From: Bacteroides sp.
Lineage (GTDB): Bacteria; Bacillota; Clostridia; Oscillospirales; Acutalibacteraceae
DNA length: 64,000 nt
Assembly: GCA_023665085.1 (NCBI GenBank)
Contig: JAMPEQ010000008.1
Coordinates: forward strand, 62,001 to 126,000
Direction of reading: 5' to 3'
The translations under genes were made by a program, and so were the position numbers. This document shows, piece after piece, positions 6,969 through 37,100 of this stretch. Below the pieces are notes generated by a model. The model did no database searches and was not told the DNA's origin. It saw only the letters and a program-made list of their open reading frames with translations. How positions within the stretch are numbered: position 1 is the first letter of the stretch; each line of letters begins with the position of its first letter.

Positions 6969-7027
6969 ATGAACTTTTCATCTTTTTAGGAAATGTAAAG
7001 ATACAAATTTAATAGACTTTTTTATAT

Positions 7028-7073: not shown

Positions 7074-7078
7074 TATGT

Positions 7079-8223: not shown

Positions 8224-8252
8224 TTGAAAAAAATCACGTAAAATGGTAAAAT
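8224..8252 (+). promoter_or_regulatory. Sigma-A promoter for the ilvD operon
   Basis: TTGAAA (8224-8229), a 17-base spacer and TAAAAT (8247-8252). Transcription would begin near 8259, 20 bases before a short leader reading frame at 8278. Confidence 0.65.
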
Positions 8253-8277
8253 ATAAATCTGTATAAGGATGTGCATT

Positions 8278-8352
8278 ATGTTCATCTTTTTTACAATTAT
8301 TTTGAACAATTATTTTAAAGAAGGTATAAGAAATGAGATCAGATTTAATTAA
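8278..8352 (+). CDS. Possible 24-residue leader peptide overlapping the ilvD start
   Basis: An ATG at 8278 has its own SD (AAGGA, 8265-8269, spacing 8) and opens a 24-codon frame rich in Ile and Phe (5 Ile, 1 Leu, no Val). It stops at 8352, twenty bases inside ilvD in another frame. This layout could couple ilvD translation to translation of the leader. It may equally be chance; no attenuator hairpin is visible. Confidence 0.3.
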
Positions 8353-9994: not shown

Positions 9995-10003
9995 GAGTCT
10001 CTT

Positions 10004-10624
10004 ATGAGTGATAAGAAAAGAAAGGGAATAAAAAAAACTGTCGGCACAGTTTATATTTTAAGAATTGTAATATTTGTTGTAATTGCAGTGGCAGTTACCG
10101 CATCAGCTATAATTATTGCATTGCCGTATGGTACCGGCATTGTTCATAAGGTGGAAGGGAAATTTCCTATGAAAAGCCGTGATGTAGTCATCAGTGAGAC
10201 TATAGTATCAGCAGATAATGCAAAGTACGGTGAAAAAATTGCCAGTATTTCAAGTGATGATTTCGGACTGAATTGTGATGTGTATTATGGAAGTAACCGA
10301 GCTTCTATGAGATATGGTGCAGGTTGGTCAAAGGAAAGCGGCAATCCCGGCGGCAGCAGGACTTGCTTAATTTCAGGTAATGGCGAAACATATTTTTCAC
10401 CTCTTCACTCAGCAACAGCAGGCGATATAATAAATGTAAAAACAGCGGATAATAGCTTTAGCTATAAGGTGTTTGATACAAAATATATTGACATAAATAA
10501 ACAGGCTTATAACGAGAATGATGATGGTATTCTTGTGATCTGCTCAGCAGAATCTTCATTTTCACCGCATTCAAGAGAAAGCTTTTATGTTTTTGCAAAG
10601 CTGATAAATGGGGAGGTTGATTGA
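10004..10624 (+). CDS. Sortase-fold protein with the catalytic His replaced by Asn
   Basis: 206 residues: a basic N-terminus, one membrane helix (about 18-40), then a class D/E-like sortase barrel. The order of conserved segments matches sortases: YGAGWSKESGNPGG, then CLISGNGETYFSPL, then TAGDIINVKT, then ILVICSAES, then Arg191 before SFYVFAKL. Cys180 and Arg191 fit the active Cys and Arg. At the position of the essential His (normally GH), Asn126 is present, so ordinary transpeptidation is doubtful. It sits between ilvD and a membrane protein whose SD lies inside its last codons. It may be a degenerate enzyme or a structural partner. Confidence 0.6.
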   Translation: MSDKKRKGIKKTVGTVYILRIVIFVVIAVAVTASAIIIALPYGTGIVHKVEGKFPMKSRDVVISETIVSADNAKYGEKIASISSDDFGLNCDVYYGSNRASMRYGAGWSKESGNPGGSRTCLISGNGETYFSPLHSATAGDIINVKTADNSFSYKVFDTKYIDINKQAYNENDDGILVICSAESSFSPHSRESFYVFAKLINGEVD

Positions 10625-10625
10625 T

Positions 10626-11477
10626 ATGTCAGATAATTCCCATGAATCAAATGTTTCAAAAAACACAAGAGGATTTCTTTCTTTTGTGCTGTTTGTGCTG
10701 ATAGTAATTCTCAGCCTTACAGCTTGTGCAAATTTAACATTTGCAAATAAAAATAATATTAAAAATCAGTTTTTAAGCTACAATTATGTTTGCGGCGTAA
10801 AGGATAATGTCAGCACATATGCTAAGGATATTTGTTTTCAAAACGGAATTAATGCTGATTTTGTTGATGATGTTTTCAATTATGATGATGTAAAAACAGT
10901 TGTTTCTTCATATTTTTGTTATTACATTACTGATGACATTGAGTATTCCGAGACCGCACATGAAGCAAATATAGACAAGCTGTGCGAAGCATTCAGGATT
11001 GAAATTGAAAGCAATCTAAAGAATCCAAATTTAACATATGATGAAAAAACTGCGGCTGCAATTTCTGCTGATGTAAGCAGTTATTTTAAGGATGCCGTAA
11101 AAATTCCTCATATGGATAAAATCAGGACAGCTATGAACGTAGGCACAATTGCACTTTATGTAACAATCGGTGTCAGTGCATTTTTTGTTCTGTCAGTTAT
11201 GCTTATAACATTTTTTGTGGGTAAAAAACGTTTTCGTTCGCTTAGGGCAATATCAATCAGCTTTATGTCTGCAGGATTTTATGAGATGTGTCTTGCTCTT
11301 ATAATATATGTAATATTCTCAGTTAAAAAGGTTGATCTGTTTCCGTTGTATTTAGAAAACCAGCTTATGAGTTATATAAATATGACTGTGATGAATATTG
11401 CTTGTTGTGCAGGCATATTAATGGTTATTTCATTAATTTTGTCTTCAATTGTATGGAAAATTAGAAAAAACAATTAA
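10626..11477 (+). CDS. Unknown membrane protein with large extracytoplasmic loop
   Basis: 283 residues, family not recognised. One N-terminal helix (FLSFVLFVLIVILSLTACA) leads to an outside domain of roughly 130 residues, then three helices near the C-terminus (starting IALYVTIGVSAFFVLSVML, SFMSAGFYEMCLALIIYVIF and MTVMNIACCAGILMVISLIL). The SD GGGGAGG overlaps the end of the sortase-like gene, 9 bases before ATG 10626; an upstream ATG at 10608 would contain the SD and was rejected. It might be the membrane partner of the following ABC ATPase, but it does not look like an ABC-2 exporter permease. Confidence 0.6.
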   Translation: MSDNSHESNVSKNTRGFLSFVLFVLIVILSLTACANLTFANKNNIKNQFLSYNYVCGVKDNVSTYAKDICFQNGINADFVDDVFNYDDVKTVVSSYFCYYITDDIEYSETAHEANIDKLCEAFRIEIESNLKNPNLTYDEKTAAAISADVSSYFKDAVKIPHMDKIRTAMNVGTIALYVTIGVSAFFVLSVMLITFFVGKKRFRSLRAISISFMSAGFYEMCLALIIYVIFSVKKVDLFPLYLENQLMSYINMTVMNIACCAGILMVISLILSSIVWKIRKNN

Positions 11478-11495
11478 AATTCAGAGGGTATTGCT

Positions 11496-12305
11496 ATGGA
11501 TAAGGATACTGCTATTTCTGTAAAAGACGTCACCATGATCTTTAACCTTAATAAAGAAAAGGTTGACAATTTAAAGGAATATTTTATTAAGCTTGTTACA
11601 AGAAAGCTTGAATACAAAAAGTTTTATGCCTTAAAAAACATTAATTTTGAGGTGAAAAAAGGCGAGCATCTTGCTATTATGGGACTTAACGGCGCCGGTA
11701 AAAGTACACTGCTTAAAGTAATTGTTGGTGTTTATAAACCTAATATCGGCACAGTAGAGAAGCAGGGTGTTATTGCACCGCTTTTGGAGCTTGGTGCTGG
11801 TTTTGATCCTAATTATACAGGTGAAGAGAATATTTATCTTTATGGCGCAATTCTCGGCTATGATAGAGAGTATATTGCATCTAAATTTGATGAAATTGTA
11901 GAGTTTTCAGAGCTTGGCAGCTTTATTAAAGTTCCTATAAAAAATTATTCCAGCGGTATGAAAGCAAGACTGGGCTTTTCTATTGCCACAGCGGTTGAGC
12001 CTGATGTGCTTATTCTTGATGAGGTTTTGTCTGTTGGTGATGCAGGCTTCAGAAAAAAATGTCTTGCTAAGGTAAAATCTCTTTTCGAGGATGGGGTAAC
12101 TGTTCTTTTTGTATCACATAGTATTGATCAGGTTAAAGCTATTTGTGATAAGGCAATTCTTTTGGAGCATGGCGAAATAGTTGCACGAGGAACTGTTGAA
12201 GAGGTTATTCCTGTTTATGAGGCTAAGACCAAGAAAAAAGCAGCTAAAAAACCTGCCAAAAAAGCTGAGGAAAGGAAACAGGAAAACCAGAAGGAGAATA
12301 AATAA
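11496..12305 (+). CDS. ABC transporter ATPase, polysaccharide/teichoic-acid exporter type
   Basis: 269 residues. Walker A GLNGAGKST (about 64-72), signature YSSGMKARLGFSIA and Walker B VLILDEVLSVGD match the TagH/Wzt/RfbB subfamily, which powers export of lipid-linked surface polysaccharides. The N-terminal stretch before the strands (NLKEYFIKLVTRKLEYKKFYALKNI) is also typical of that subfamily. The last 35 residues are an unusual Lys/Ala/Glu-rich tail (KKKAAKKPAKKAEERKQ). No standard ABC-2 permease is adjacent. Its stop codon abuts the start codon of the GH43-like gene. Confidence 0.88.
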   Translation: MDKDTAISVKDVTMIFNLNKEKVDNLKEYFIKLVTRKLEYKKFYALKNINFEVKKGEHLAIMGLNGAGKSTLLKVIVGVYKPNIGTVEKQGVIAPLLELGAGFDPNYTGEENIYLYGAILGYDREYIASKFDEIVEFSELGSFIKVPIKNYSSGMKARLGFSIATAVEPDVLILDEVLSVGDAGFRKKCLAKVKSLFEDGVTVLFVSHSIDQVKAICDKAILLEHGEIVARGTVEEVIPVYEAKTKKKAAKKPAKKAEERKQENQKENK

Positions 12306-13238
12306 ATGCCTTTTTTATGTGCTCATTTCAGAGAAAAAATTACTATTGACGGCGAGCAAGTGTACTTTTCGGTAAGTAAAGATGGTTATAAGTGGGAAGA
12401 ACTTAACAGCGGAAATCCTATTCTTTACTGCGATAAGGGCGAAAAAGGCTGTCGTGATATAGAAATTATAAGACTAAAACACGGTGGTTTCGTGATTCTT
12501 GCAACGGATTTATGTATTGTAAACCGTATGGATGAAAATTATAATGTTGACTGGAAAAAGGTTAATAGCTCAGGAAGCAATTGTCTGTCTATCTGGAAAA
12601 GTGATGATTTAGTTCATTTTTCCGAGCAGGAGCTTATTGATTTCAGCGGTATGGATTTTGGCTGTCTCTGGGCGCCTGAAGTTTTTTACGATGATATCAA
12701 TGACGAATATTTAATACACTGGGGCTCAACAGTGAAAACCGATGATTATTCTCATATGTCTATTTACTGCTGTACAACCAGGGATTTTGTCTCATTTTCT
12801 AAACCAAAAATGTTTTTTACAAAGGCTAATGAGATTCTGGATAGTCATATTGTAAAAATTGATAATACATATCACTTATTTTACAAGAATTCAAGTGATC
12901 CTTCATGCAACATGCATGCAACATCAGACAGTCTTTACGGCGAATATATAAATGACGATGATTTTGAAAAATATATGCTCAGTCTTTATCGTCCGGGATC
13001 ATTTGAGGCACCTACAACTTTTGAATTACCGGACGGAAAATGGTGTATGATGCTTGATTTCTTTGGTTGTGAAAAAGAAAAAATGGGCTATGTTCCATTT
13101 ATCTCGGATAATATCGGGAATGCTGATTTTATCAGAGCAGATAAAGCTTTTACTTTTCCTTATGGTTTTAAACATGGAAGAGTAATTAAAATTACAGATG
13201 ATGAGTATAACAATGTAAAATTGAATTATAACAAATGA
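12306..13238 (+). CDS. GH43-like five-bladed beta-propeller glycosidase
   Basis: 310 residues without a signal peptide, hence cytosolic. Family 43 features include the SIWKSDDLVHFSEQ blade, the CLWAPEVFYDD segment, EILDSHIVKIDNTYHLFYKN and SFEAPTTFEL, where the Glu matches the general acid position. GH43 enzymes remove arabinose, xylose or galactose residues from plant or host glycans. The ATG immediately follows the stop of the ABC ATPase gene and the SD lies within that gene. The N-terminus is short, so the catalytic base Asp cannot be assigned with certainty. Last gene of the ilvD run. Confidence 0.75.
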   Translation: MPFLCAHFREKITIDGEQVYFSVSKDGYKWEELNSGNPILYCDKGEKGCRDIEIIRLKHGGFVILATDLCIVNRMDENYNVDWKKVNSSGSNCLSIWKSDDLVHFSEQELIDFSGMDFGCLWAPEVFYDDINDEYLIHWGSTVKTDDYSHMSIYCCTTRDFVSFSKPKMFFTKANEILDSHIVKIDNTYHLFYKNSSDPSCNMHATSDSLYGEYINDDDFEKYMLSLYRPGSFEAPTTFELPDGKWCMMLDFFGCEKEKMGYVPFISDNIGNADFIRADKAFTFPYGFKHGRVIKITDDEYNNVKLNYNK

Positions 13239-13244
13239 TAAATG

Positions 13245-13276
13245 TGTACCGATTTCTAAAATCGGTACATTTTTTT
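13245..13276 (+). terminator. Terminator after the GH43-like gene
   Basis: Perfect stem TGTACCGATTT (13245-13255) with AAATCGGTACA (13259-13269), 3-base loop, then seven T. Confidence 0.9.
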
Positions 13277-13299
13277 GACTCAAGTTCAACGCAACGACC

Positions 13300-13332
13300 A
13301 AAAAAGTCACGAACATTTTGTTCGTGACTTTT
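13300..13332 (-). terminator. Terminator after the GH3 gene
   Basis: Perfect 14-pair stem AAAAGTCACGAACA (13302-13315) with its complement (13319-13332) and a TTT loop. Six A residues on the left give the U-tract on the - strand, so it ends the GH3 transcript. Confidence 0.85.
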
Positions 13333-13362
13333 GTCTGGAAATATTTGATTATTATATATTTA

Positions 13363-15864
13363 TTAGATTGAGCTGAGAAGCTTAGGAAGTTTTGCAATTG
13401 TTCCTCCGAGTCTCCAGAAAATTTTGCTGAATCCTGCAAAGCTTGACTGGTCATCGTTGAGCATCATAAGCAATCCCTCTGCCTGTGCAGGTGAGAAAGC
13501 GCCCATACTCATTGCAATAAAGTTACGAACAGGAATCTGTGTTGCCATTGCAGCAAGCATTTTTCCGTCACCATTAGCATCACTGCCCATTCCTGACATG
13601 ATTTTTTCAATAAGACCGCAAAGTCTGCCACCCCATTTTGTATGGCGGGCATCATTAAGACAGCAGTAAATATCAATCTTTTTGTTTGTATCAATTTCAG
13701 GGCTTGGAAGCTCACCATAAACTGCAGCAAAATCATCTCTTGTGATGTTTGCAACATCATTGTAGTAGTTTGGAGCAGTCTTTCTGTAGTCAGGAATAAC
13801 TGCATCAACTGTTGATTCAACTGTCATAGTAGCTGTAAGCTTGATATCACGGCTTGATGCACCTACCATAATGTCGAATTCGCCTGTTTCAACCTGCCAG
13901 TCACCAAGATCTACATTATAGAAAGCGAATGCTCTCTTTGAAAGTTCAACAGATACTTCTGCCTCTTCGCCTGCTTTAATAAACACTTTCTTGAAGGCTC
14001 TGAGCTCTTTTACAGGACGATAGATTGTTGATTCTTTATCAGCAACATATATTTCTGCTACTTCAGCACCGTCAACATTGCCAGTGTTTTTAATTTTGAA
14101 TGAAACTGTTACAGTGTCTGTATCCTTAATATTATCTGCAGAAAGCTTGATGTCGCTGTACTCAAATGTTGTGTATGAAAGTCCATAACCGAATGGGAAT
14201 ACAACATCAAGATTAGCAGCATCATAATATCTGTAACCGATGTATACAGACTCTTTATGTTCACTTGTAACAGGACCGCCTGGATAATTGTCGTAGGTTG
14301 GATTATCACTGAATGAAACAGGATATGTTTCTGATGTCTTACCTGATGGATTAACCTTACCTGTGAGAATATTTGCAACAGCGCCGCCGCTTGCCTGACC
14401 GCCAAGTCCTGAGTTAAGCAATCCCTTAACCTCGCTGAGCCATGGCATAAGAACAACTGATCCGCCTGCAAGAACAACTACTGTGTTTGGATTTGCAGCA
14501 GCAACAGCTGATACAAGTGCATTATGGTTTTCAGGCATGTTGATAGCTTCTCTATCGTAGCCCTCACCCTCAAACTCTTCTGTAAGACCTACAAATACAA
14601 CTGCAACATCGCAAGCCTTTGCAGCAGCAACAGCCTCTTTAACAAGCTCTGCTTCCGGTTTTCTTGTTTTCTTTTCTTTCTTTGTAGGAGCTGATTTATA
14701 ATATCCCTGAGCATATGTCATGTCAACACCAAGCTTTTCAAGCTCATCATAAGCATTTGAAAGCATTGTAGGATTAATAACTGATGAACCTGCACCCTGA
14801 AAACGAGGAGCTTTTGCCATTTCACCGATAACAGCAACCTTCTGGCCGTCTTTAAGAGGAAGAACAGCATCATCGTTCTTGAGAAGAACCATTGAGCCCT
14901 CTGCAATTTCCTGAGCAATTTTATGATGTGCCTGTGGATCAAATGTGTGTTCCTTTTCAAGTGCAGGCTTTGATTTAACAATAAGATTTACAACATTGTC
15001 AACTCTTGCATCAAGAACAGCCTCATCAAGATCACCGTTCTTAACTGCCTCAATAATTCTCTTTGTATTCAGGTCACCGGATGAAGGCATTTCCAAATCT
15101 GTACCTGCTTTAAGTCCGGGGATTCTGTCAACAGATGCACCCCAGTCAGTTACGAGCAAGCCGTCAAATCCCCATTCTTTACGGAGAACCTGCTCCTGCA
15201 GCCACTCGTTTTGAGAAGCGTAAACACCGTTGATACGGTTGTATGAATTCATTATTGTCCATGGCTGAGATTCTTTTACTGCAATTTCAAATGCAGGGAG
15301 GTAGATTTCTCTCATAGTTCTTTCATCGATTACTTCATTAAGAACCATACGAAAAGCTTCCTGTGAGTTGCAGGCAAAATGCTTTAACGAAGTACCAACG
15401 CCTTTAGACTGAACACCGTTGATAACAGCGGCAGAGCATTTACCGGCAAGAAGCGGATCTTCACTGAAATACTCAAAGTTACGGCCGCAAACAGGTGAAC
15501 GCTTGATGTTAGTACCGGGGCCAAGGATTGTTGATACCTTTTCTTTAAGACATTCCTGTCCCATAGCCTCGCCCTCTTTTTGAAGAAGGTCCATGTCCCA
15601 TGAGCAAGAAGATGTTGCAGCGGGCGGGAAGCAAGTAGTAGGTACTGAGTTGCCGAGACCGATTCCGCCGCTTGTTTTGGCAGCTCCTTCCGGCTCAACG
15701 TAATCTTTGCCCTTCTGTTTACGCAAACCGTGAGGGCCGTCTGTAATCATAATTTTAGGAAGTCCCAGCTCAGCTGCTTCCTCTAAGTGCCAATAGTCAT
15801 AACCTGAAACAAAAGCAGCCTTTTGCTCTAAGGTCATCTTTTTAACGATTTCTGGGTGTTTCAT
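13363..15864 (-). CDS. Family 3 glycoside hydrolase (beta-glucosidase-like)
   Basis: 833 residues, no signal peptide. The N-terminal barrel shows MITDGPHGLR, a KHFACNSQE element and the nucleophile Asp240 in VTDWGAS. The second domain contains the AVIGEMAKAPRFQGAGSS segment, and an FN3-like domain (TVSFKIKNTGNVDGAEVAEIYV) follows. About 130 C-terminal residues (from about 690) extend beyond a usual GH3/FN3 protein and are not recognised. Likely a cytosolic exo-beta-glycosidase acting on imported oligosaccharides. The ATG at 15864 has SD GAGAGGAG 9 bases upstream; a start 12 codons earlier has none. Confidence 0.92.
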   Translation of the reverse strand: MKHPEIVKKMTLEQKAAFVSGYDYWHLEEAAELGLPKIMITDGPHGLRKQKGKDYVEPEGAAKTSGGIGLGNSVPTTCFPPAATSSCSWDMDLLQKEGEAMGQECLKEKVSTILGPGTNIKRSPVCGRNFEYFSEDPLLAGKCSAAVINGVQSKGVGTSLKHFACNSQEAFRMVLNEVIDERTMREIYLPAFEIAVKESQPWTIMNSYNRINGVYASQNEWLQEQVLRKEWGFDGLLVTDWGASVDRIPGLKAGTDLEMPSSGDLNTKRIIEAVKNGDLDEAVLDARVDNVVNLIVKSKPALEKEHTFDPQAHHKIAQEIAEGSMVLLKNDDAVLPLKDGQKVAVIGEMAKAPRFQGAGSSVINPTMLSNAYDELEKLGVDMTYAQGYYKSAPTKKEKKTRKPEAELVKEAVAAAKACDVAVVFVGLTEEFEGEGYDREAINMPENHNALVSAVAAANPNTVVVLAGGSVVLMPWLSEVKGLLNSGLGGQASGGAVANILTGKVNPSGKTSETYPVSFSDNPTYDNYPGGPVTSEHKESVYIGYRYYDAANLDVVFPFGYGLSYTTFEYSDIKLSADNIKDTDTVTVSFKIKNTGNVDGAEVAEIYVADKESTIYRPVKELRAFKKVFIKAGEEAEVSVELSKRAFAFYNVDLGDWQVETGEFDIMVGASSRDIKLTATMTVESTVDAVIPDYRKTAPNYYNDVANITRDDFAAVYGELPSPEIDTNKKIDIYCCLNDARHTKWGGRLCGLIEKIMSGMGSDANGDGKMLAAMATQIPVRNFIAMSMGAFSPAQAEGLLMMLNDDQSSFAGFSKIFWRLGGTIAKLPKLLSSI

Positions 15865-27458: not shown

Positions 27459-27860
27459 TTATATCATATCAGCATCACTTTCTTCAATTATCACTGCAGG
27501 TTCGTTAACAAAATATCCATGTGTTTCGTCGTAAGAGTCAAATATTACAAGGCTTACAAATACACCCCAAATAATCAAAATACCTATAATTAACCCAAGA
27601 ATTATTCTTTTGACATTAAGCTTTTTCTTAATTTCCTTCAAATCTGCATCGGCAAAGAAGGCTTTTGCGATTGTCTCAGGATCTCCGAAATTTTCTTGAA
27701 ATTTATCGACAGTCGAAATATCGTTTGACTCAACATAATCATATATGCTTTCTTTATATTTCTTCATGAAATCCCGTTTGCTTTTAGAATTGCATATTAT
27801 TAACGATTTGACTTCTTTCAGATATTTCTTAATTGCTTTGTCCAGCTTCTTGTCCATCAT
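27459..27860 (-). CDS. HAAS/DUF1700-like membrane protein paired with PadR
   Basis: 133 residues. The N-terminal helical region (KAIKKYLKEVKSLIICNSKSKRDFM) and the phrase FQENFGDPETIAKAF match the HAAS-type domain found in DUF1700 and DUF6120 proteins that accompany PadR regulators. One membrane helix (IILGLIIGILIIWGVFVSLVIF) and an acidic tail follow. Probably a membrane sensor or modulator linked to the PadR switch. ATG 27860 has AAAAGGG 8 bases upstream and overlaps the end of padR by 32 bases. Confidence 0.72.
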   Translation of the reverse strand: MMDKKLDKAIKKYLKEVKSLIICNSKSKRDFMKKYKESIYDYVESNDISTVDKFQENFGDPETIAKAFFADADLKEIKKKLNVKRIILGLIIGILIIWGVFVSLVIFDSYDETHGYFVNEPAVIIEESDADMI

Positions 27861-28206
27861 TATCATCACCCTTTTCATTTCTATCTAAAATTTTACTGAT
27901 TGCTTCTGTGATTTTATCATAGTCATTCAGTATTTCTTTTAAATAGCTTCTCCCTTTATCCTCTAAATGATAATATCTTCTGGTACGCCGTTTTCCCACA
28001 ATTTCCGTATAGTCACTTATATAACCTGCTTCTACCAATTTATATAGTATAGGGTATAGTGAACCTTCCAGCATTGTATAAACGCCGTTACTTTTTTGTT
28101 CAAATGACTGGGTGATTTGATATCCATACAAATCTTCTTTTTGCAGCAAATGCAAAACAAGAAGCTCAGCCGTACCGCGCTTAAAGTTATCTTGATTCTG
28201 ACTCAA
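27829..28206 (-). CDS. PadR-family transcriptional regulator
   Basis: 125 residues. PadR winged-helix features: RGTAELLVLHLLQKEDLYGYQI, LEGSLYPILYKLVEAGYISD and RRTRRYYHLEDKGRSYL. It uses a TTG start with SD AAGGTGAG 7 bases upstream. PadR proteins are repressors released by small molecules or stress. It shares the intergenic region 28207-28361 with the divergent TIR operon, so it could regulate that operon as well as itself; this is inference from position only. Confidence 0.9.
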   Translation of the reverse strand: MSQNQDNFKRGTAELLVLHLLQKEDLYGYQITQSFEQKSNGVYTMLEGSLYPILYKLVEAGYISDYTEIVGKRRTRRYYHLEDKGRSYLKEILNDYDKITEAISKILDRNEKGDDNDGQEAGQSN

Positions 28207-28248
28207 AGTTATCTCACCTTCAGCTAATATACATTAACTATTGCAATG

Positions 28249-28277
28249 ATTTTATCATATAATATATTTTCTGTAAA
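28249..28277 (-). promoter_or_regulatory. Promoter of padR
   Basis: On the - strand: TTTACA (28277-28272), a 17-base spacer and TAAAAT (28254-28249). Confidence 0.65.
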
Positions 28278-28299
28278 TACTTTTTCTGCAAATATATTG

Positions 28300-28328
28300 T
28301 TGACAAAACATAACTTTGATATTACAAT
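28300..28328 (+). promoter_or_regulatory. Strong promoter of the TIR operon
   Basis: TTGACA (28300-28305), a 17-base spacer and TACAAT (28323-28328). It is 23 bases from the divergent padR -35 element. Confidence 0.8.
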
Positions 28329-28361
28329 AAAATTGTTATTTTGACAAAAGGAGATAAATTT

Positions 28362-29180
28362 ATGAATGTTATTAAGACTTTAAGTATGGAAATTTCAGCA
28401 ATCAAGAATGTTTTGAATGAATCCTGTTATGATGAACATATTGGAAATTTTATTGATGAACTGGAAATAGCTATTGTTAAAGAAGATACTGATACAATAA
28501 AATATTGTGTTTCACAAATTTTTGAGTGGTTTGATATGAATAAGAAACGTGTTGAAGTACGCTTTAAAGACGAGCATGAGCTTTATGCATATAACAGAAT
28601 ATTAAAAGTACTTAATGATGTTTATTATGAGTTTAATCCTTTGGCTTTTGTGGATATGATAGAAGAACCAAAATATAAAGCTATTGATGAAACGCCTATG
28701 ATATTTCTCAGTCATAGTTCTAAGGATACCGAATATGGTGATGCAATCAGGGATTTTATCACAGGTTTAGGTGTTAAAAATGATCAGCTGATTTATTCAT
28801 CTCATCAGCTGCACAAAGTTCCTTTGGGAGAAAATATATTTAATTATTTGAGACAAAGCTTTGAAAAAAACATTTTTGTTATAATTTTGTGGTCTGACAA
28901 TTATCTTGAAAGCACGGCTTGTATAAAGGAGCTTGGGGCAGCATGGGTAACGCAGAAGGATTATGCAAATATTTATGTCCCTGATTTTGATTTAAAGAGT
29001 TCAAAATATCGTGATTGCGATATTGATCCATCTAAGCTTGGTATAGAATTAAAAGATGACGGCATGTGTAAAACGAATATCATTGAATTAAAAAACAAAA
29101 TTCAGGAGCTGTTTGATTTGAAAGATGATGAAAAAAATTCATCATTTCTGATTGACCGTTTTATGAATAGTATTAAATAA
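28362..29180 (+). CDS. TIR-domain protein
   Basis: 272 residues. An N-terminal helical domain (1-108) precedes a TIR domain (about 112-250): PMIFLSHSSKD, then GVKNDQLIYSSHQLHKVPLGENIFNYL, then NIFVIILWSDNYLESTACIKELGAAW. Glu190 in CIKEL is where TIR NADases have the catalytic Glu. Bacterial TIR proteins often cleave NAD+ or make cyclic ADP-ribose signals in antiphage defence. ATG 28362 has SD AAAGGAGAT at ideal spacing. It heads an AT-rich seven-gene operon, and no known defence family was recognised for its partners. Confidence 0.88.
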   Translation: MNVIKTLSMEISAIKNVLNESCYDEHIGNFIDELEIAIVKEDTDTIKYCVSQIFEWFDMNKKRVEVRFKDEHELYAYNRILKVLNDVYYEFNPLAFVDMIEEPKYKAIDETPMIFLSHSSKDTEYGDAIRDFITGLGVKNDQLIYSSHQLHKVPLGENIFNYLRQSFEKNIFVIILWSDNYLESTACIKELGAAWVTQKDYANIYVPDFDLKSSKYRDCDIDPSKLGIELKDDGMCKTNIIELKNKIQELFDLKDDEKNSSFLIDRFMNSIK

Positions 29181-29215
29181 ATATTTGTCAAATTAAGAGA
29201 CAAGGGGGGAGGAGT

Positions 29216-29803
29216 TTGCCGTTTGATAATGCTATAACCGAATCAAAGGAATTTAAAAAAGTAATAAGTATTAAAAATACATATAAATTAGCCAAAAAAT
29301 TCAAAATTAAAGGCGAATTCTTTTCACCTTATAAGCGATATAAGATTGCCAGAGAAATAAGTAAGTTTGAAGAATCATTGATTGATATTATATTTAGCGA
29401 GGTAGAAAATATAAATATTGATACAGATAATATTATAAGTATATTTGAAAATAACTGTCAGCATATCAATCACAATGGAGATAGTATTGATAAATTGAAA
29501 TCAATAATCAATTATTTTCTTATTCTTCCGAAAATAAAAAAACTTATAATAGATTACAGACTTAAATTAACTAAAAATAAATCATATGAAGATGTCAAAA
29601 AAGAATATGAAACAGATGTAGATCTACTGAAAAAAGTTTTTGATAAAGCAAAAAAAGAATATGATGACAATGATAAAAACTATAGTCAAAAAGAGCAATA
29701 TGTTAAGACAGCTGAAGAACGAATAGATGCTATTATTGATAGTTGTAGCGGAAATTTGACAGATGACCAGAGAGGAGAGGAAGAAGAATGTGTACATCAT
29801 TAG
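29216..29803 (+). CDS. Coiled-coil protein of the TIR operon, unknown
   Basis: 195 residues, no recognised family, and no internal Met. Charged helical sequence throughout; residues about 118-170 (KSYEDVKKEYETDVDLLKKVF...) should form a coiled coil. GC content is about 25-27% in the lines I counted, the lowest in the window. Start is TTG 29216 after a very purine-rich SD (GGGGGGAGGAG). The end overlaps the ATPase gene by 16 bases, which indicates coupled translation. Confidence 0.62.
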   Translation: MPFDNAITESKEFKKVISIKNTYKLAKKFKIKGEFFSPYKRYKIAREISKFEESLIDIIFSEVENINIDTDNIISIFENNCQHINHNGDSIDKLKSIINYFLILPKIKKLIIDYRLKLTKNKSYEDVKKEYETDVDLLKKVFDKAKKEYDDNDKNYSQKEQYVKTAEERIDAIIDSCSGNLTDDQRGEEEECVHH

Positions 29804-30903
29804 CACTTATCAGCGGAAAAGGCGGAAGCGGAAAGACAACATTAGGCTTAGCATTGTCAGAATTACTGGCAGTATGTGATAAAAAAGTTTTGTTAATGGA
29901 CTGCGATATGAGCACTCATGGAGCTACATATTTTTTTGAACCTTATTTAAAAGAAAAATCTAATATTATTACTACCAAAGAATTATTATTTAGCAGTCAA
30001 AACGAGGATATCTTGGTATATAAAAAAGAGCTGGATGTTCAAAAGAATATTTCATTTGTTCCATCTTGTGTTGAATTTCCCAGCAAGTATTACGAAAATC
30101 CTAATATTCAGTTAAATCAATATGCATATGAGCAATTAAAGAAAAAGTATGATGTAATAATTTTTGACTGTCAGGCGGGTTTTTCATTTATAGCTGAACG
30201 GGTGACCGAGATATCGGATATAAAATTACTTGTTATGGAATCAGATGCCGTATCTACTGCGGCAGTTCGAGTATTAAATACTCAATTAGGCAATAATCTT
30301 ATTGACAAAACATATCAGGTGTTTAATAAAATTGACGAATCTGAAAAAAAACTCTATACAGAGCTTGTATTCGGAACATTTTATACAAATTTAACTCCTA
30401 TTTTATTTGACTGGAGCATTAAAAGGGCTTTTGGTACAAACAGTTTGCCGGATGTTGATGAGAATAACGATACATTTACAGACAATATTTATCAGCTTGC
30501 AGCAGATTTATTTCCTTTTTATAAAAAAGACTTAGATCAATACTTATTACATTCTAAAATAAAAAAGAAAAAATTATGCGAAATCGCTTATGAGAAAAAG
30601 CAACGTGAACGCAAAAAAGTATATATGCGCAAGTTTTATGAAGATATATCAATGGTGATATCTATAATTGCTGTATTTGCATCAATAATAGTATATTTTA
30701 TTACCGTTGATTTGAATGATATGAATATATTGCTGCTGTCGGCAGTTGCAGTTTTAATTTGTGTTTTGTTTTTATTATATTTCGTGAGAAATATTAATAA
30801 TAAAAAATTATATGACAGTAAAAGATATGATGATTTAAAAAATGAAATAAAATGTATTACTGATGATATTGAGAAATTAAGAAGCCGATTAAAGAAAATG
30901 TAG
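29788..30903 (+). CDS. MinD/ParA-like ATPase with C-terminal membrane hairpin
   Basis: 371 residues. The deviant Walker A SGKGGSGKTT (9-18), the DCDMSTHGAT motif (38-46) and YDVIIFDCQAG (121-131) place it among SIMIBI ATPases of the MinD/ParA/BY-kinase group. FDCQAG carries Cys-Gln where most ParA proteins have small polar residues. Unusually, residues about 287-306 and 312-333 are two membrane helices, followed by a short coiled coil (335-371). This suggests a membrane-fixed NTP switch rather than a plasmid-partition protein. It overlaps the upstream gene. Confidence 0.82.
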   Translation: MCTSLALISGKGGSGKTTLGLALSELLAVCDKKVLLMDCDMSTHGATYFFEPYLKEKSNIITTKELLFSSQNEDILVYKKELDVQKNISFVPSCVEFPSKYYENPNIQLNQYAYEQLKKKYDVIIFDCQAGFSFIAERVTEISDIKLLVMESDAVSTAAVRVLNTQLGNNLIDKTYQVFNKIDESEKKLYTELVFGTFYTNLTPILFDWSIKRAFGTNSLPDVDENNDTFTDNIYQLAADLFPFYKKDLDQYLLHSKIKKKKLCEIAYEKKQRERKKVYMRKFYEDISMVISIIAVFASIIVYFITVDLNDMNILLLSAVAVLICVLFLLYFVRNINNKKLYDSKRYDDLKNEIKCITDDIEKLRSRLKKM

Positions 30904-30934
30904 TATGTTTTATATTTAAAAAGGAGGAATTTTT

Positions 30935-31648
30935 ATGAGAAACAGAAAATATTCAAAAGTTAAAATTGATGAACTGCCCAAAACATATAAAATGAGTTTT
31001 TTTACTGAATTAATGCTGATTTTAAGAGGCAGAATAGATGCTCGAAAGTCTGTAATTCGTCTTACAGATGAAAATGACTATAAAAGTTATACATCTCCGT
31101 TTATACAAAAGGAAATCAGCTTGTGTCAGGTTGCATTTGACAATGAAAAGATTGATTTGCTTAACAGAATTACAGGAAATCTTGCAAATTGCTATACTTA
31201 CAGAGCCAGAATTTCTCAGGGCAAGGCTACGTTAGATACTATTGCAGATAATAACAAGTATTATCTGAGCGAAGATAATGATTACAGCATGATATTCAGT
31301 GATTCTGAAGAAATTGATGAAATAAACAAACTTCGTGAATATTATGAAAAAATGTCTAATTATTTTGCACAGAATTCAAGATTGAATAATATCAAGCACT
31401 CTGAATTTGATCTTGATAAGGATATAAATGTTAATAAGCTTATTTCAAAAAAGGAGTATGATGTGACATATGTACGATGTTCGCAGTTATATCAGCTTTT
31501 ACTTGCTCGTTTGGCTGCGTATTGGACAGGTGCATTAAGACATGATAAAGAGAAAAAGAAGTTTCCTCCTGTTTTTCCTTATGAAGATATTTTATCTACT
31601 TTAAAAGAGCAGCTGAATGAACTTAAATTGTGCAGGGAGGTTGATTAA
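30935..31648 (+). CDS. Unknown soluble protein of the TIR operon
   Basis: 237 residues, predominantly helical, without signal peptide or membrane helix. No family recognised. Notable segments are FTELMLILRGRIDARKSVIRL near the N-terminus and SQLYQLLLARLAAYWTGALRH near the C-terminus. SD AAAGGAGG is 8 bases before ATG. Its last bases contain the SD of the next gene. Confidence 0.62.
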   Translation: MRNRKYSKVKIDELPKTYKMSFFTELMLILRGRIDARKSVIRLTDENDYKSYTSPFIQKEISLCQVAFDNEKIDLLNRITGNLANCYTYRARISQGKATLDTIADNNKYYLSEDNDYSMIFSDSEEIDEINKLREYYEKMSNYFAQNSRLNNIKHSEFDLDKDINVNKLISKKEYDVTYVRCSQLYQLLLARLAAYWTGALRHDKEKKKFPPVFPYEDILSTLKEQLNELKLCREVD

Positions 31649-31649
31649 T

Positions 31650-32063
31650 TTGGGTAAGAAAAAAATAAAATTTAAGAAGATTTCTCTGTCAGGCTTAGGA
31701 TACACAGAATTATCTCCTATATCCGACAGCTCAATTGAGAATTCTGTTATCAGCAAAAAGAATCAAAGCAAGTCAAATATAGCAGATGCATATTCGGAAA
31801 TGATGTATCTTGATAGCTGTGTTGATGAAGAAATAGCAAAAATGCTGAGTGAGCTTGAGGCACAGTATAAGAAAAATACTAACGCAATAAGAAATTATTA
31901 CACACAGCGTGCATCTAACAAGAGAGAACTTGAAATTTTGCTTGATAATCTTGAGATGCAGATTCCTATTGCAGAAGAGGAGTTTAGAATCGCACAGGAG
32001 ATATACAATGCTAACAATCCTATAAGCATTGACAAGGAGGATAAATATGAAGAAGTCGATTGA
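31650..32063 (+). CDS. Unknown coiled-coil protein of the TIR operon
   Basis: 137 residues. A basic N-terminus (GKKKIKFKKISLSGLGYTEL) precedes a long helical region (about 55-125) likely to be a coiled coil. Start is TTG 31650, placed 9 bases after GGGAGG; an upstream ATG (31617) lies before the SD and is rejected. It overlaps the next gene by 17 bases. Confidence 0.6.
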   Translation: MGKKKIKFKKISLSGLGYTELSPISDSSIENSVISKKNQSKSNIADAYSEMMYLDSCVDEEIAKMLSELEAQYKKNTNAIRNYYTQRASNKRELEILLDNLEMQIPIAEEEFRIAQEIYNANNPISIDKEDKYEEVD

Positions 32064-32793
32064 ATTAAGTGCTAAAGGTTCTGTTACTTTATCAGCAGAA
32101 ACAAAGCTTTTCAGTTCAATAAGAAATATGAACACATGGTACACAAATAATAAATTTACTGTGCCGGTATTATTTGCTGCAGCAGGAATTGATATAAGCG
32201 GCTTTTATCAGGCTGTTTCAAGTATATCGTATGAAAGTGTCTATATAAGAGTTATAATAATCGCAGCTTTTGTAATTGCCTTTGAGCTTGCACCTCTGTA
32301 TGTAGGCTATGCCTTATGTCTGAAAGCGTATAATCTTGGAAAACGAATAAGAAGACCTGTATTTTATTTTTCACTTGCATCTTTTTTGATAGGTTTGCTG
32401 GCTAATACATATTTCAGAATTGCCGTACTCAGAATAGATATGGCAGTGAATGAGAATTTTGAACCCAACAACACGCCATTTACAGTTCTTATGATAGTTC
32501 TTCCGCTGATTACAAGCTTAATGAACTTTGCAATTGGCTGTCTGTCGTTTGATCCCCTGTTATTTGATTTAAAAAGACTGGCAAAAAGGCTTGGTGCATT
32601 AAAAGCCAATAAAAGAAAATGCGAAGCAGAGCTTGAGAAATATGCAGATGATAATCTTCGTCAGGGTGAAATGCTTCAATCAGAATTTGAAAAGTATGAA
32701 AGAGCAAAAATTGAGTTGATAACACTGAAAATAAAGCTTCATAATTATATTAATCTGAATTCTGCAGGCGAAAATGATTCAGGGGGCAAATAA
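32047..32793 (+). CDS. Four-helix membrane protein with coiled-coil tail
   Basis: 248 residues. Predicted membrane helices lie near 37-58, 67-91, 105-127 and 144-168, followed by a long charged helix (172-235: LKRLAKRLGALKANKRKCEAELEKYADD...). The layout of four helices plus coiled-coil tail recalls proton-channel subunits such as MotA/ZorA, but I see no family motif, so this is only an analogy. ATG 32047 has SD AAGGAGG at ideal spacing. The lipoprotein gene starts immediately after its stop. Confidence 0.68.
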   Translation: MKKSIELSAKGSVTLSAETKLFSSIRNMNTWYTNNKFTVPVLFAAAGIDISGFYQAVSSISYESVYIRVIIIAAFVIAFELAPLYVGYALCLKAYNLGKRIRRPVFYFSLASFLIGLLANTYFRIAVLRIDMAVNENFEPNNTPFTVLMIVLPLITSLMNFAIGCLSFDPLLFDLKRLAKRLGALKANKRKCEAELEKYADDNLRQGEMLQSEFEKYERAKIELITLKIKLHNYINLNSAGENDSGGK

Positions 32794-34038
32794 ATGAAGA
32801 AAATAATCAAGATATTTAGTGTTATCGTGTGCATTTCGCTTATTTTATGCGGATGCACAGATGATAATATTTCTTTTGAGAATGCGACTGTTAAGGCTAT
32901 AATTTACGGAAATCATCAAAATGCAAATATTGTAAGCAAGGACAGCTTATCTGTAGAAATAAATGATATTTATGAAAATTTCGGAAATATGGCATTTATT
33001 GTTTCTGACGGTACACCTGAAATTGAGCATGATGGTGAATCTTTGCTGGGTTCCAGAAGTCTAGATGAGCTGAAGCAAAGCTACAAGGATAGAAGTAATA
33101 ATCCATCGCTTTGGTCAGGCAAAGGTAAGGATGATTTTGTAAAAAATATTGAGGCAAAGTTGGATTTAATTAAAGCAGACAGTGAAGAGGTTGACTTGCT
33201 GGAGGCTATATTTGAAGCGGTATCAGCTATAAATATGCTGAATGTTTATGACAGTGTAACAAAAAAAGAAATAATAATTTATGATCCGGGAATTTCAACA
33301 AAGGGCAGTGTTGCCTTTACAGATGAATTTTTTGAATATAGTAATAAAGAAATCGAAGAGTACATTGATGATCTGGAGGGTGATAAGTTGCTTCCTGATT
33401 TAGATGATATATCAATCAGGTGGTATGGAATAGGAGAGGTTGCATCACCTCAGGAGGAAATTAACCGAGGCAAAATTGCTTTAATAAAAGATTTTTGGAA
33501 AAAGCTTATAGAAGAATGCGGAGGCTCTGTTGAGTTTAAAGATGCTGATTTTATAGACGAGAGTAATTCGGAATATAAAGTTACAGTTGTTCATATTCCT
33601 GAGCCTGCACCTGTTTCGGATGAAACTTTTAAAGTGTCTTTTAAAAGCGATTCGGAAGATTATTCCAACAGCAAAAAAGCAGCGAACACAATAAAAAAAG
33701 CTGCTAAGGAAATAAAGTCTTCTGATGGTAAATGGTATGTAATAGGCTGCGAGGCAGGAAGGACTAAAGACGGTATTAATGAGCTTGATTCCCACGTTTC
33801 TGCAAAAAGGGCAAAAAAAGTTTCACAGGAGCTTCGTGCAATGGGTGTGTCTGATGAACAGATTGTTGCAGTCGCATTAGGTCCTTACAATCCGTGGCAT
33901 ATTGAAGATTATGATGAAGATGAAACATGGAAAGATGATAAGGCAAAGGAAAACAGAAAGGTTGTTATAATACATACTGAAAATAAATCAATTGAGCGGA
34001 ACATTGAATTTATAGAAAAGGGTATATTAAAATCATAA
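32794..34038 (+). CDS. OmpA-domain lipoprotein
   Basis: 414 residues. A signal peptide with a lipobox ends at Cys21 (SLILCGC). Residues 30-270 form an unknown outside domain (possibly vWA-like: AIIYGNHQNAN at the start, KEIIIYDPGIS later). Residues about 278-395 are an OmpA/MotB-like peptidoglycan-binding domain (WYVIGCEAGRTKDG, SAKRAKKVSQELRAMGVSDEQI, KENRKVVII). In a Gram-positive cell it would be tethered to the membrane and may touch the wall. Last gene of the TIR operon; its start abuts the preceding gene's stop. Confidence 0.8.
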   Translation: MKKIIKIFSVIVCISLILCGCTDDNISFENATVKAIIYGNHQNANIVSKDSLSVEINDIYENFGNMAFIVSDGTPEIEHDGESLLGSRSLDELKQSYKDRSNNPSLWSGKGKDDFVKNIEAKLDLIKADSEEVDLLEAIFEAVSAINMLNVYDSVTKKEIIIYDPGISTKGSVAFTDEFFEYSNKEIEEYIDDLEGDKLLPDLDDISIRWYGIGEVASPQEEINRGKIALIKDFWKKLIEECGGSVEFKDADFIDESNSEYKVTVVHIPEPAPVSDETFKVSFKSDSEDYSNSKKAANTIKKAAKEIKSSDGKWYVIGCEAGRTKDGINELDSHVSAKRAKKVSQELRAMGVSDEQIVAVALGPYNPWHIEDYDEDETWKDDKAKENRKVVIIHTENKSIERNIEFIEKGILKS

Positions 34039-34060
34039 AACTTGGTTTATGCAAGTAAGA

Positions 34061-34101
34061 AAAAAGCGGCAGATTGTTTGACAGACAGTCTGCTGCTTTT
34101 T
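34061..34101 (+). terminator. Terminator of the TIR operon
   Basis: A 17-pair inverted repeat (34061-34077/34085-34101) with two wobble pairs and a 7-base loop, ending in TTTTT. Confidence 0.9.
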
Positions 34102-34114
34102 GTATGGTATATAA

Positions 34115-34144
34115 TTGACAGTAGTTGCCAATGCATTGTATAAT
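34115..34144 (+). promoter_or_regulatory. Promoter of lacZ-DUF5054
   Basis: TTGACA (34115-34120), an 18-base spacer and TATAAT (34139-34144). Confidence 0.8.
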
Positions 34145-34178
34145 AATTTTAACAGCTTAAACAAAGGAGTAAAATATT

Positions 34179-37100
34179 ATGAAATACAGCATACACAGAA
34201 ATCTGCATACTGATTTTAGTATTTTTGAAGAAAACAAGCTTGATGCAAGGAGTTACTTTATTCCGTTTTCATCAATTAAAAAGCTTGCAGAAACTGATTA
34301 TAAGAACGAGAGGTATAAGTCAGACCGTGTAATCATGTTAAGCGGTGAATGGGATTTTGCTTATTATGAAAAATTAAGTCTTGTTCCTGATTCCTTTGAT
34401 ACAGATAATGTAAGTTTTGACAAAATTACTGTGCCGTGCACATGGCAGAGAACAGGTTATGACCAGATTGCGTATATCAATACACGTTACCCATTTCCTA
34501 AAAAGCCGCCTCATATTCCGGCTGATGTAGCAACAGGTATTTACAGAAAAACTGTTGATATCAAGCAGTCAGGCAAGCGGCATACTCTTTCATTTTTAGG
34601 CGCAGCAGGTGCTCTTGCTGTTTATGTAAATGGTGAATATGTTGGCTACAGCGAGGGCTCACACAATACTGCTGAGTTTGATATAACCAAATTTTTAAAT
34701 GACGGCAAAAATGAAATAGTTGCTGTTAATTATAAATGGAGTAATGGCTCATATCTTGAATGTCAGGATATGTTCAGAGAAAATGGTATTTTCCGTGATG
34801 TATTTATTACTGAATTTGACGGCAGTTATATAAATGATTTTACTCTTCGTTCATCAAAAAACAGTGACGGAACGTATAATCTTAATATTGATGTAGAAGG
34901 ATGCTTTGAAAAGAATACAAGAATCGAGATTAAATCGTCAGAGGAACAGCCTGTAATCAGTGCTGAACTTTTACCTGAAAAAAGTGTTAGCCTTTCCAAT
35001 CTTTCTGTTAACGAGTGGACAGCTGAAACTCCTAATCTTTATGAATTGACAATTGTGCTTTATAAAGATGATAAAGAGATTGAGGCAATTCGTACTTATT
35101 ATGGTTTTAAAAATGTTGAAATTAATGGTGAGGTGTTCCTTTTCAATGGTAAGGCTATCAAGTTCAAGGGTGTAAATCATCATGATACACATATGACAAA
35201 GGGATACGCCATGAGTCTTGATGATATGGAGCTTGATATTAAGCTGATGAAGGAATACAACTGCAATTCGGTCAGAACTTCCCATTATCCTCCTGATCCT
35301 GCATTTTTGACAATGTGCGATATGTATGGTCTTTATGTTGTTGATGAGGCTGATATTGAAACTCATGGATTTTATGCAGTTCCTCATACAACTTATAATC
35401 CCAACAGATTAAGTAATGACATCAGCTGGGCATCACATTATCTTGACAGAGTTAAGAGAATGTATGCAAGAGATAAAAATCATCCAAGCATTACTATGTG
35501 GAGTCTTGGTAATGAATCAGGCGGTTACAAGTGTCAGGATGTCTGCTATGAATATTTAAAGAATGCTAACCCTGAAATTCCTGTTCACTATGAAGGGGCA
35601 ATACGCAGTAAGCGGTGGGCATATGATGTTGTGTCAAGAATGTACGCAACACCAGACCTTATGAGAAAAATTCTCAATGGTACGGCAGGAAATAAATACA
35701 AGGGAAAGCCGTTCTTCCAGTGTGAATATGCACATGCTATGGGAAATGGTCCGGGTGGACTTGAAGAATATATGCAGTTATTCTATTCATCAAATCAGTT
35801 TATGGGCGGATGTATATGGGAATGGGCAGACCACAGTGTTTATGATGAGACTGCGAAGTATAAGTGGACATATGGTGGTGACCATAATGAGCCTATTCAC
35901 GATGGTAACTTCTGTGTTGACGGTCTTTTTTATCCTGACAGAAAGTCCTCAAGCGGTGCACTTGAAATGAAGACTTGCTATAGACCAATCAGAGCAAAGC
36001 AGATAAAGGGAAATGTTTTTGAACTTTGGAACACAAGAAGTTTTGCAGACAGCTCTGATATAAAAATTGATTTTGAAGTTATGGTTGACGGTGAGAGTAA
36101 AGAGGTTGGTGCTATCAGCAGCGTTATTCCTGCCGGTGCTAAGAAAAAGGTGCAGATTAACTCAACTTATTTCAGACAAACTGACAAGGATGTTTTTGTA
36201 AACTTTATTTATACTGATAAAAAAAGCGGAAGTGACATTGCCGTTGAGCAGGTTATTGTTTCACAGGCAGATCTTAAAAAAGCAGATAACCAGTCAAAGC
36301 CTGCTGAGATAACACAAAATGGTAATACAATTAATGTTTTATTTGACAACGGAAGTGCTGTTTTCAATACAAAAATTGGTTTTATCAGTTATAACAAAAA
36401 CGGTATTGAATATCTTAATAAATATCCTTATGACGATGCAGCGGGCTTTGTTCCTCATATCTACAGAGGCAGACTTGATAATGATCAGTATATGGTTATT
36501 TTCTGGAAAATTATCGGTCTTGACTGTACAAAGACAAAGCTTGTTTCCTGTGAGATTAAGAGTAAGGATAATATTAAATATATAAGCACAGTATATGATT
36601 TTGTCACAAGAGGTATATTTGTTCTGGCAAGGGCAAATGTTGATTACTGTTTTGATAAAAACGGCAAAATGACTATAAGTGCATCTCTGAAAAAAATTTG
36701 TCCTCTTACAGACCAGCTGCCGCGTTTTGGTGTTCATGCTGAGCTTAAGGCTGAGTTTGAGAATGTAAAATACTATGGCAGAGGACCTGTTGAAAACTAT
36801 TCTGATTTTAAGGAGCATTCGCCAATAGGTGTTTATAAAACAACCGTTGCAGATATGGCGCACAAGTATATTAAGCCGCAGGATTCAGGCAACAGAGGTG
36901 ATGTTCGATACAGTATGCTCACGAATAAAAGTGGCACAGGCCTTAAGTTTACTGCTCTTGAAAGATATATTAACTTCAATGCAAATCACTTTACTCTTGA
37001 ACAGCTGAAGAAGGCTAATCATATTGAAGATCTGCCTGATGTGGATACAATCTATGTTGCTGTTGACGGATTTGTAAGGGGAACAGGATCAGGAAGCTGC

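Follow-up and report, generated by a model that had tools for sequence, protein, structure and literature searches.

What is encoded by a packed run of seven genes in which a TIR-domain protein, a MinD/ParA-like ATPase and an OmpA-domain lipoprotein follow one another on the same strand, and do the seven genes form one system or two? The question arises from a 64,000-nucleotide stretch of DNA of Bacteroides sp. (GTDB family Acutalibacteraceae; NCBI GenBank assembly GCA_023665085.1, contig JAMPEQ010000008.1, positions 62,001 to 126,000), hereafter the window, which is part of a 130 kb contig in a genome of 2.34 Mb. The run comprises seven same-strand open reading frames (ORFs) at 28362-34038 (+), named here, in order, tir, cc2, atp, g4, g5, g6 and lip (genes 1-7; Table 1). 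The analysis divides it into two parts: genes 4-7 are a separate conserved set that occurs without genes 1-3, and tir is, by its sequence, a member of the SpbK family. The explanation we favour, tentatively and at somewhat less than an even chance, is that the operon is a two-module anti-phage (conflict) locus in which a wall-linked transmembrane platform serves swappable immune effectors, the effector here being SpbK.

A conserved four-gene set

The search for the set started from lip, whose relatives were found in 10 other genomes (G036, G060, G065, G124, G392, G723, G779, G787, G1084 and G1077, with G124 belonging to the same order as the window's genome) and on two further contigs from metagenome-assembled genomes (MAGs). 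The 12 corresponding loci (L013, L014, L015, L016, L028, L030, L031, L033, L034, L035, L045 and L046) carry the set, either complete or cut by a contig end. Both g6 and lip are present in 13/13 core loci, the window counted, and the order g4-g5-g6-lip holds wherever the contig is long enough; a contig end cuts L033 after g6 and L014 is likewise cut, about 10 kb separate lip of L028 from the preceding g4-g6, and g4 of L031 is reduced to an ORF for its last 146 residues. Homologues of g4 are found in L013, L015, L030, L034 and L028 and, more weakly, in L014, L016 and L035, the profiles of the window's group and of this second group matching each other with E 4.8e-5 and a probability of 68%; g4 is assigned with weak support in L046 and by place only in L045. 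Sequence homologues of g5 occur in L013 and L034, the other loci having a gene of the same place and size only.

The set is sparse. In genome samples that overlap and that each include the window's own genome, lip-type matches were found in 5 of 148 relatives, 2 of 398 phylum genomes, 7 of 391 class genomes (one OmpA-only) and 8 of 375 order genomes (four in the C-terminal part only); C-terminal-only matches in G742, G946, G1137, G1175 and G1185 (L036, L047 and L048 viewed) were left out of the counts. A housekeeping operon for genes 4-7 was rejected because of this sparseness across the samples. The first-pass annotation, made from the sequence alone, had named the regular occurrence of genes 2-7 without TIR in a housekeeping operon as an observation that would speak against it; genes 4-7 do occur without a nearby TIR gene, but no housekeeping operon was seen. 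Among the loci examined, none other than the window has genes 1-3 beside genes 4-7, and atp is without relatives in the searches described below, so that the idea of one conserved seven-gene system, with which the first-pass annotation began, was abandoned. On the other hand, its view that the whole set matches no described system still holds within the libraries and the open-licence PubMed Central (PMC) literature searched, where no description of the four-gene set was found either. Viral contigs gave no relative of lip (queried with the proteins of the window, L030 and Streptomyces and with alignment A6), tir or atp, and phage records gave no lip match.

Beyond the OmpA part, relatives of lip are present in 4 of 72,556 plasmid records, all of them actinobacterial (two from Rhodococcus, one from Nocardia and one from Streptomyces); eight records matching the Streptomyces lipoprotein in the OmpA part only were left out. 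The Nocardia plasmid has genes for proteins of 236, 109, 278 and 163 residues before lip, matching g4 (236 residues, E 0.037), g5 (109 residues, E 0.011) and g6 (278 residues, E 4e-5), with only the g6 assignment supported. In one Rhodococcus plasmid, a 261-residue protein after lip matches one g6 model (E 5e-4), and both Rhodococcus plasmids carry TPR and CHAT genes nearby. The Streptomyces plasmid (L067:5812-13068) is a separate case, in which a TIR gene stands in one run with the lipoprotein: (i) a TIR protein (TIR_2), (ii) a 771-residue protein with a weak nSTAND3 match (E 0.044), (iii) a 301-residue protein, (iv) a vWA-OmpA lipoprotein, (v) a 581-residue membrane protein and (vi) a 140-residue protein, separated by gaps of -4 to 30 bases. 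The proteins adjoining this lipoprotein are not recognisable as g4-g6, and the run looks like a related system.

The lipoprotein and the membrane protein g6

The first 21 residues of lip form a lipoprotein signal whose Gly-Cys is invariant in 10/10 aligned members, and the C-terminal OmpA domain matches PF00691 just above the cut-off (E 4.1e-6; 27.5 bits against 27.2), in agreement with the OmpA-domain lipoprotein of the first-pass annotation. The same part gives PDB profile matches from E 1.6e-11 and Foldseek matches to the MotB/Pal C-terminal domains (MotB, E 2.7e-4). The Asp of GHTD and the Arg of LSxxRA have roles in peptidoglycan binding by OmpA domains; the Arg is nearly invariant in the lip family and the Asp is replaced in the family profile.

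The middle part of lip may be a degenerate vWA-like domain, a call that comes from one sub-threshold match and an alignment, since a PDB profile search with this part gave no vWA match. The match is that of the Streptomyces relative to VWA_2 (E 4.7e-4; 21.2 bits, short of the cut-off of 27), and in the alignment the vWA metal site DxSxS reads DDSAS in the Streptomyces relative and GNHQN in the window, where, as in the other relatives, it is of GxHxN type and thus departs from the metal site. A low-confidence model displays alternating strands and helices in this region. An extracellular location is predicted for the large conserved part of lip.

The membrane protein g6 shows three membrane helices by hydropathy; the fourth of the four helices originally counted appears only in a low-confidence model. 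No Pfam family matches the g6 family at E 0.01 (0/11 members), and window g6 has no PADLOC match.

Gene 1 belongs to the SpbK family

The tir protein matches the PADLOC spbK model over its full length (residues 1-272, E 7.9e-86), the SpbK structure PDB 9phb across residues 1-262 (E 6.7e-24) and the Pfam TIR_2 family (E 1.2e-7). Its KELGAAW motif places E190, G192 and W195 on SpbK E192, G194 and W197. By these comparisons tir belongs to the SpbK family with the N-terminal domain retained, and E190 is its presumed catalytic Glu, as the first reading of the sequence had proposed for an NADase; we infer NADase activity for the copy in the window. In Bacillus subtilis, spbK from an integrative element protects against a temperate phage (PMC8880864). 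As described in PMC12847820, SpbK is an NADase whose products are ADP-ribose (ADPR) and N1-cyclic ADP-ribose (N1-cADPR). The phage sensor in B. subtilis is its N-terminal domain, through which it binds YonE, the portal protein of SPbeta; the enzyme is switched on by TIR-domain clustering, and spbK and yonE suffice to inhibit growth without other ICEBs1 or SPbeta genes. The same source gives any receptor for N1-cADPR as unknown. SpbK-type action is the best-supported functional step of the operon. Because the N-terminal domain of SpbK is itself the phage sensor, envelope sensing need not drive tir, which takes away the necessity of the coupling between envelope sensing and TIR effector that had been suggested at the outset.

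Relatives of tir in 4 other genomes match in the TIR half only, with no other operon gene adjoining; one lip match in L018 (E 0.004, 63 residues) was dismissed.

The two genes that follow tir were not found with the other operon genes in any further locus. The ATPase matches Pfam AAA_31 (E 1.4e-15), an archaeal MinD model and the MinD structure PDB 1ion (E 6e-8), and its Walker A motif, by reading, is KGGSGKTT, a deviant form with the signature Lys. Hydropathy peaks at 287-305 and 314-332 correspond to two C-terminal membrane helices followed by a charged tail, confirming the membrane hairpin of the initial description. No family was found for cc2 in the libraries searched. An all-against-all BLAST, covering 236 ORFs of the window neighbourhood and of the 12 other core loci, paired neither cc2 nor atp with another protein; the ORF picker behind it is not exhaustive, having overlooked g4 of L030. 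Relatives of atp were absent at E 1e-12 from the other 147 of 148 relatives and from plasmids, and at E 1e-14 from the other 290 of 291 class genomes; short-peptide scans of genome and viral contigs, which reach close relatives only, gave none.

Candidate effector genes beside the set

A survey of 11 core-bearing genomes with the PF13676 (TIR_2) profile at E 1e-5 found 14 TIR_2 genes; 11 of them are no more than 20 kb from the core, and the number is 9 at a limit of 10 kb and 8 at 5 kb. By genome, those within 20 kb are 1/1 in the window's genome (G000), 3/3 in G392, 3/3 in G723, 4/5 in G124 and 0/2 in G787. Excluding the window's genome, three of the four TIR_2-bearing genomes have such a gene within 20 kb, with P ~6e-4 under uniform placement, a figure that ignores the clustering of defence genes.

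The adjoining TIR proteins are of varied build, including (i) a CAP12-type TIR gene 188 bases before g4 in L016, (ii) a TIR_2 gene 123 bases before lip in L028, (iii) a fusion of a TIR domain and a Ser/Thr protein kinase in L015 (8679-10247, +), divergent from the core and 577 bases off, and (iv) two TIR-NB-ARC-TPR proteins and a TIR-Sel1 protein in L035, divergent and 280 bases off. When seven adjoining TIR proteins were compared (BLAST, E 1e-3), only those of L015 and L035 aligned together. The adjoining TIR-NB-ARC-TPR pair of L035 (350-5249, -) has a build like that of the nucleotide-binding leucine-rich-repeat (NLR) proteins.

Kinases and nucleases form a second group of neighbours. L015 encodes a very large protein with a kinase domain and a C-terminal Card1-like nuclease domain (11014-15252, -; Pkinase E 1.5e-13, Card1 just under the Pfam cut-off, PADLOC CARF-PDDEXK E 7.8e-13) and L028 a very large kinase protein with a C-terminal Card1-like nuclease (6653-11176, +), both parts of which lie below the Pfam cut-offs; these two large proteins possibly represent a kinase-nuclease effector family. 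In addition, PP2C genes adjoin the set in L028 and L045, the latter also having a kinase with Sel1 repeats, and L034 has AbiE, a C5-methylase and an HSP90-like ATPase as neighbours. In L046 a 15-repeat CRISPR array (12872-13827) lies beside the core, before Cas10/RAMP genes. The neighbours in L030 comprise a non-specific endonuclease and an M48 peptidase, ClpP occurs among the set's neighbours, and two neighbours in L033 are without Pfam families. No TIR gene was seen near the set in, for example, L013, L045 and L046.

These recurrent defence-type neighbours make an immune role for g4-g7 likely, in keeping with the membrane- and wall-linked set with a defence role that the first-pass annotation had envisaged. 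They also bear on an improbable alternative, in which the set serves a general envelope or mobile-element function, such as surface exclusion or conjugation support, and is carried along with defence genes without sharing their role. Such a function would suit the relaxase and mobilisation genes next to L013, the TraG/VirD4-like ATPases within ~10 kb of the set in L015, L030 and L035 and the related lipoproteins on plasmids, but no complete conjugation gene set was seen in the ORF view of these stretches, and the TIR, kinase and nuclease neighbours better fit immunity.

A cassette conserved downstream of the set was observed in three loci (L030:11263-15417, L031:11459-14090 and L035:11204-14560). 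It comprises a TrwB/VirD4-like ATPase, a second related protein and an M48-type membrane protein, to which L030 adds the non-specific endonuclease and L031 a relative of that enzyme.

Proposed mechanism and its rivals

The favoured explanation, a wall-linked platform with exchangeable effectors, assigns the seven genes to two modules. In module A, comprising tir, cc2 and atp, the SpbK-type TIR NADase, clustered by its trigger, would empty the cell of NAD+ and so halt phage growth. In module B, the g4-g5-g6-lip envelope complex, the outward lip with its vWA-like and OmpA parts would touch or sample the cell wall, the four-helix g6 would relay the signal across the membrane, and the coiled-coil tail of g6 with g4 and g5 would form a cytoplasmic docking platform. 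This platform may sense envelope or DNA-entry disturbance and recruit or license the co-encoded effector, with the membrane-anchored MinD-like atp linking it to the TIR protein; defence activity, the coupling of the modules, the direction of signalling and the part played by the ATPase are all proposed in this sense. We propose that the platform licenses varied effectors because elsewhere the set adjoins genes for phosphatases, kinases, a fusion of kinase and nuclease, and TIR proteins of other kinds, and this explanation is preferred because the outward lip is the largest conserved part and the partners vary while the platform stays. That genes 4-7 represent an undescribed class of envelope-anchored immune platform with interchangeable effectors (SpbK, CAP12-type TIR, TIR-kinase, TIR-NB-ARC and kinase-nuclease) is a further step, held with slightly greater reserve.

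Several observations weigh against the platform and its coupling to TIR effectors. L013, the closest relative and of the same genus, has the four genes in a genome 90% complete with no TIR_2 match; six of the 11 core-bearing genomes lack a TIR_2 match at E 1e-5 (the CAP12-type TIR is found in one of them, G060), and the two TIR_2 genes of G787 are on contigs other than that of the core. Since defence genes cluster in islands, the association of the set with TIR genes could arise without function. In the complex itself, the g5 profiles of the window's group and of the other groups match only with E 0.012 and a probability of 4%, homology thus not being shown by sequence, and wall binding by lip may be altered because the GHTD Asp is not kept. 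The structure prediction recommended for lip and g6 brought little, as both models are of low confidence (pLDDT, the predicted local distance difference test score, 51 and 56, respectively) and too weak for fold assignment beyond the OmpA part, with no structural match of g6 below E 0.2. Finally, tir may not need module B, because SpbK and its trigger arrest B. subtilis alone and the protein has its own sensor domain.

This last point leads to the chief rival, two independent defence modules on one transcript, which we regard as rather unlikely while taking it seriously. SpbK would sense a portal-like protein alone and kill by NAD+ loss, and genes 4-7, perhaps with cc2 and atp, would be a separate system, the shared operon reflecting co-regulation in a defence island. 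Consistent with this, SpbK is a single-gene PADLOC entry whose N-terminal domain is kept here, and the four-gene set is found in genomes without TIR_2, L013 and others. The guanine-plus-cytosine (GC) content points the same way, with 25.5-30.0% in tir-cc2-atp versus 34.3-35.0% in g5-g6-lip; including g4, the first four genes have 25.5-31.2%, lower than the last three, which fits assembly from two parts. Against two independent modules, TIR genes of varied build repeatedly adjoin the set, and a TIR gene stands in a co-directional run with the lipoprotein both in L067 and in the window. Sequence by itself cannot decide between these two explanations.

The order of signalling might also be reversed, the TIR protein making a cyclic ADP-ribose signal and the envelope complex being the receiving effector that damages membrane or wall. 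The N1-cADPR that SpbK makes besides ADPR, according to PMC12847820, is compatible with this order, as are the type III CRISPR genes (L046) and the CAP12-type TIR gene (L016) beside the set, yet the libraries searched reveal no ligand-binding domain (SLOG, SAVED, CARF or like) in g4-g7, and the large conserved part of lip is predicted to be extracellular; we consider the reversed order quite unlikely.

Most bacterial TIR systems are viewed as cytoplasmic sensor-effector pairs. Under the platform explanation, a wall-linked module accompanying genes for TIR proteins, kinases and nucleases would make the state of the envelope an input to TIR-type immunity, much as nucleases are called in by the Zorya membrane complex. 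If true, the set would be a motor-free counterpart of Zorya that is shared by Bacillota and Actinomycetota and couples disturbance of the envelope to suicide responses, NAD+ depletion among them. The set also offers four gene families that can be tested and that carry no annotation in the libraries searched.

Operon anatomy

The seven closely spaced co-directional genes described at first are borne out by the ORFs, the intergenic gaps being, from tir to lip in order, 35, -16, 31, 1, -17 and 0 bases. The single promoter and terminator ascribed to them fared unevenly. The terminator-like hairpin is strong (-26.3 kcal/mol, z -5.35, 0/200 shuffles equally stable), and a simple terminator scan listed no + strand terminator in 28200-34200, this hairpin included. 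A single promoter, in contrast, is not proven, because such sites are common in the AT-rich window (43 sites versus 32.2, standard deviation 5.7, in shuffles, which makes the site weak evidence) and a second site of equal score lies inside the operon at 32876 (+). The AT-richness noted at first holds up but is less marked than described, the GC content being 31.5% in the operon against 35.7% in the window.

Table 1. Features of the seven-gene operon, in coordinates of the window
Feature	Position	Strand	Description	Evidence
Promoter-like site	28300..28328	+	sigma-70-type, TTGACA-17-TACAAT	11/12 consensus positions
tir	28362..29180	+	272 residues; N-terminal domain and TIR, SpbK family	PADLOC, PDB 9phb, TIR_2
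cc2	29216..29803	+	195 residues, TTG start; charged, probably helical soluble protein, no family	helical by sequence reading
atp	29788..30903	+	371 residues; MinD/ParA-like P-loop ATPase, two C-terminal membrane helices	AAA_31, MinD models, hydropathy
g4	30935..31648	+	237 residues; soluble protein, gene 1 of the four-gene set	homologues in other loci
g5	31650..32063	+	137 residues, TTG start; small coiled-coil-like protein, gene 2 of the set	homologues in L013, L034
g6	32047..32793	+	248 residues; putative four-helix membrane protein, coiled-coil-like tail, gene 3 of the set	hydropathy, 13/13 core loci
lip	32794..34038	+	414 residues; lipoprotein, possible degenerate vWA-like domain and C-terminal OmpA, gene 4 of the set	Pfam OmpA, Foldseek, alignments
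Terminator-like hairpin	about 34060..34102	+	intrinsic type, hairpin then T run	folding energy versus shuffles

A Pfam scan of genes 2, 4, 5 and 6 gave no family above cut-off. In the libraries searched, names exist only for gene 1 (spbK), for the superfamily of the ATPase atp and for the OmpA domain of lip, and strong recognition by PADLOC-DB within the locus is limited to gene 1. Divergent from the operon lie a PadR-like regulator gene (family assigned by eye) and an overlapping small membrane protein gene (27459-28206, -). In four relatives, the genes upstream of the beta-galactosidase orthologue are different ones and the operon is absent; these neighbourhoods are rearranged, so they provide no clean empty site.

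Comparison with known systems

Zorya, named in the first-pass annotation, resembles the locus in outline only, as a membrane complex with a wall-binding domain and cytoplasmic effectors; according to PMC11890865, infection draws ZorE to the membrane. A motor defence system driven by ions, like Zorya, would account for the combination of a membrane protein, an OmpA-type protein and effectors and for the PADLOC ZorB3 matches (E 0.014 for window lip and 3.1e-5 for L030 lip), which cover the OmpA part only. It is nonetheless very improbable and largely refuted by sequence: g6 has no MotA/ExbB-type match (11/11 members scanned), lip, with its lipoprotein signal and vWA-like part, is not a MotB-type single-pass ZorB, and ZorC, ZorD and ZorE are unmatched among the window proteins. 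The partners of the set are TIR or kinase proteins. With MotA-type and MotB-type subunits missing, membership in Zorya was rejected, and the comparison survives as an analogy.

Thoeris shares a TIR protein within a multi-gene locus; it was rejected, as the seven operon proteins contain no ThsA match and ThsB matches to the TIR fold are weak only (E 3.4e-4 and 0.01). Compared to the MinD/ParA family, atp has the P-loop of KGGxGKTT type and matches the AAA_31 and MinD models, but it differs in its two-helix C-terminal membrane anchor with charged tail, and no MinE, MinC or ParB is recognised among the seven operon proteins. SpbK itself is matched by tir over its full length, with both domains and the catalytic Glu motif; it is described as one gene sufficient with a phage trigger, whereas tir here heads a seven-gene run.

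The closest printed idea found is that of the MoxR-vWA iSTAND ternary systems (Kaur et al. 2020, eLife; PMC7159879), which, according to that source, combine TIR effectors with vWA components and with OmpA-type domains anchored in the membrane, and occur mainly in bacteria with Gram-negative walls. No MoxR ATPase family is listed for the seven window proteins or for 55 distinct related-locus proteins scanned, the core and a subset of neighbours (60 entries, 5 repeated; E limits 1e-4 to 0.1). The likeness lies in the joint occurrence of vWA, TIR and OmpA-type domains; the difference is that here the vWA-like and OmpA parts are joined in one lipoprotein of a four-gene set.

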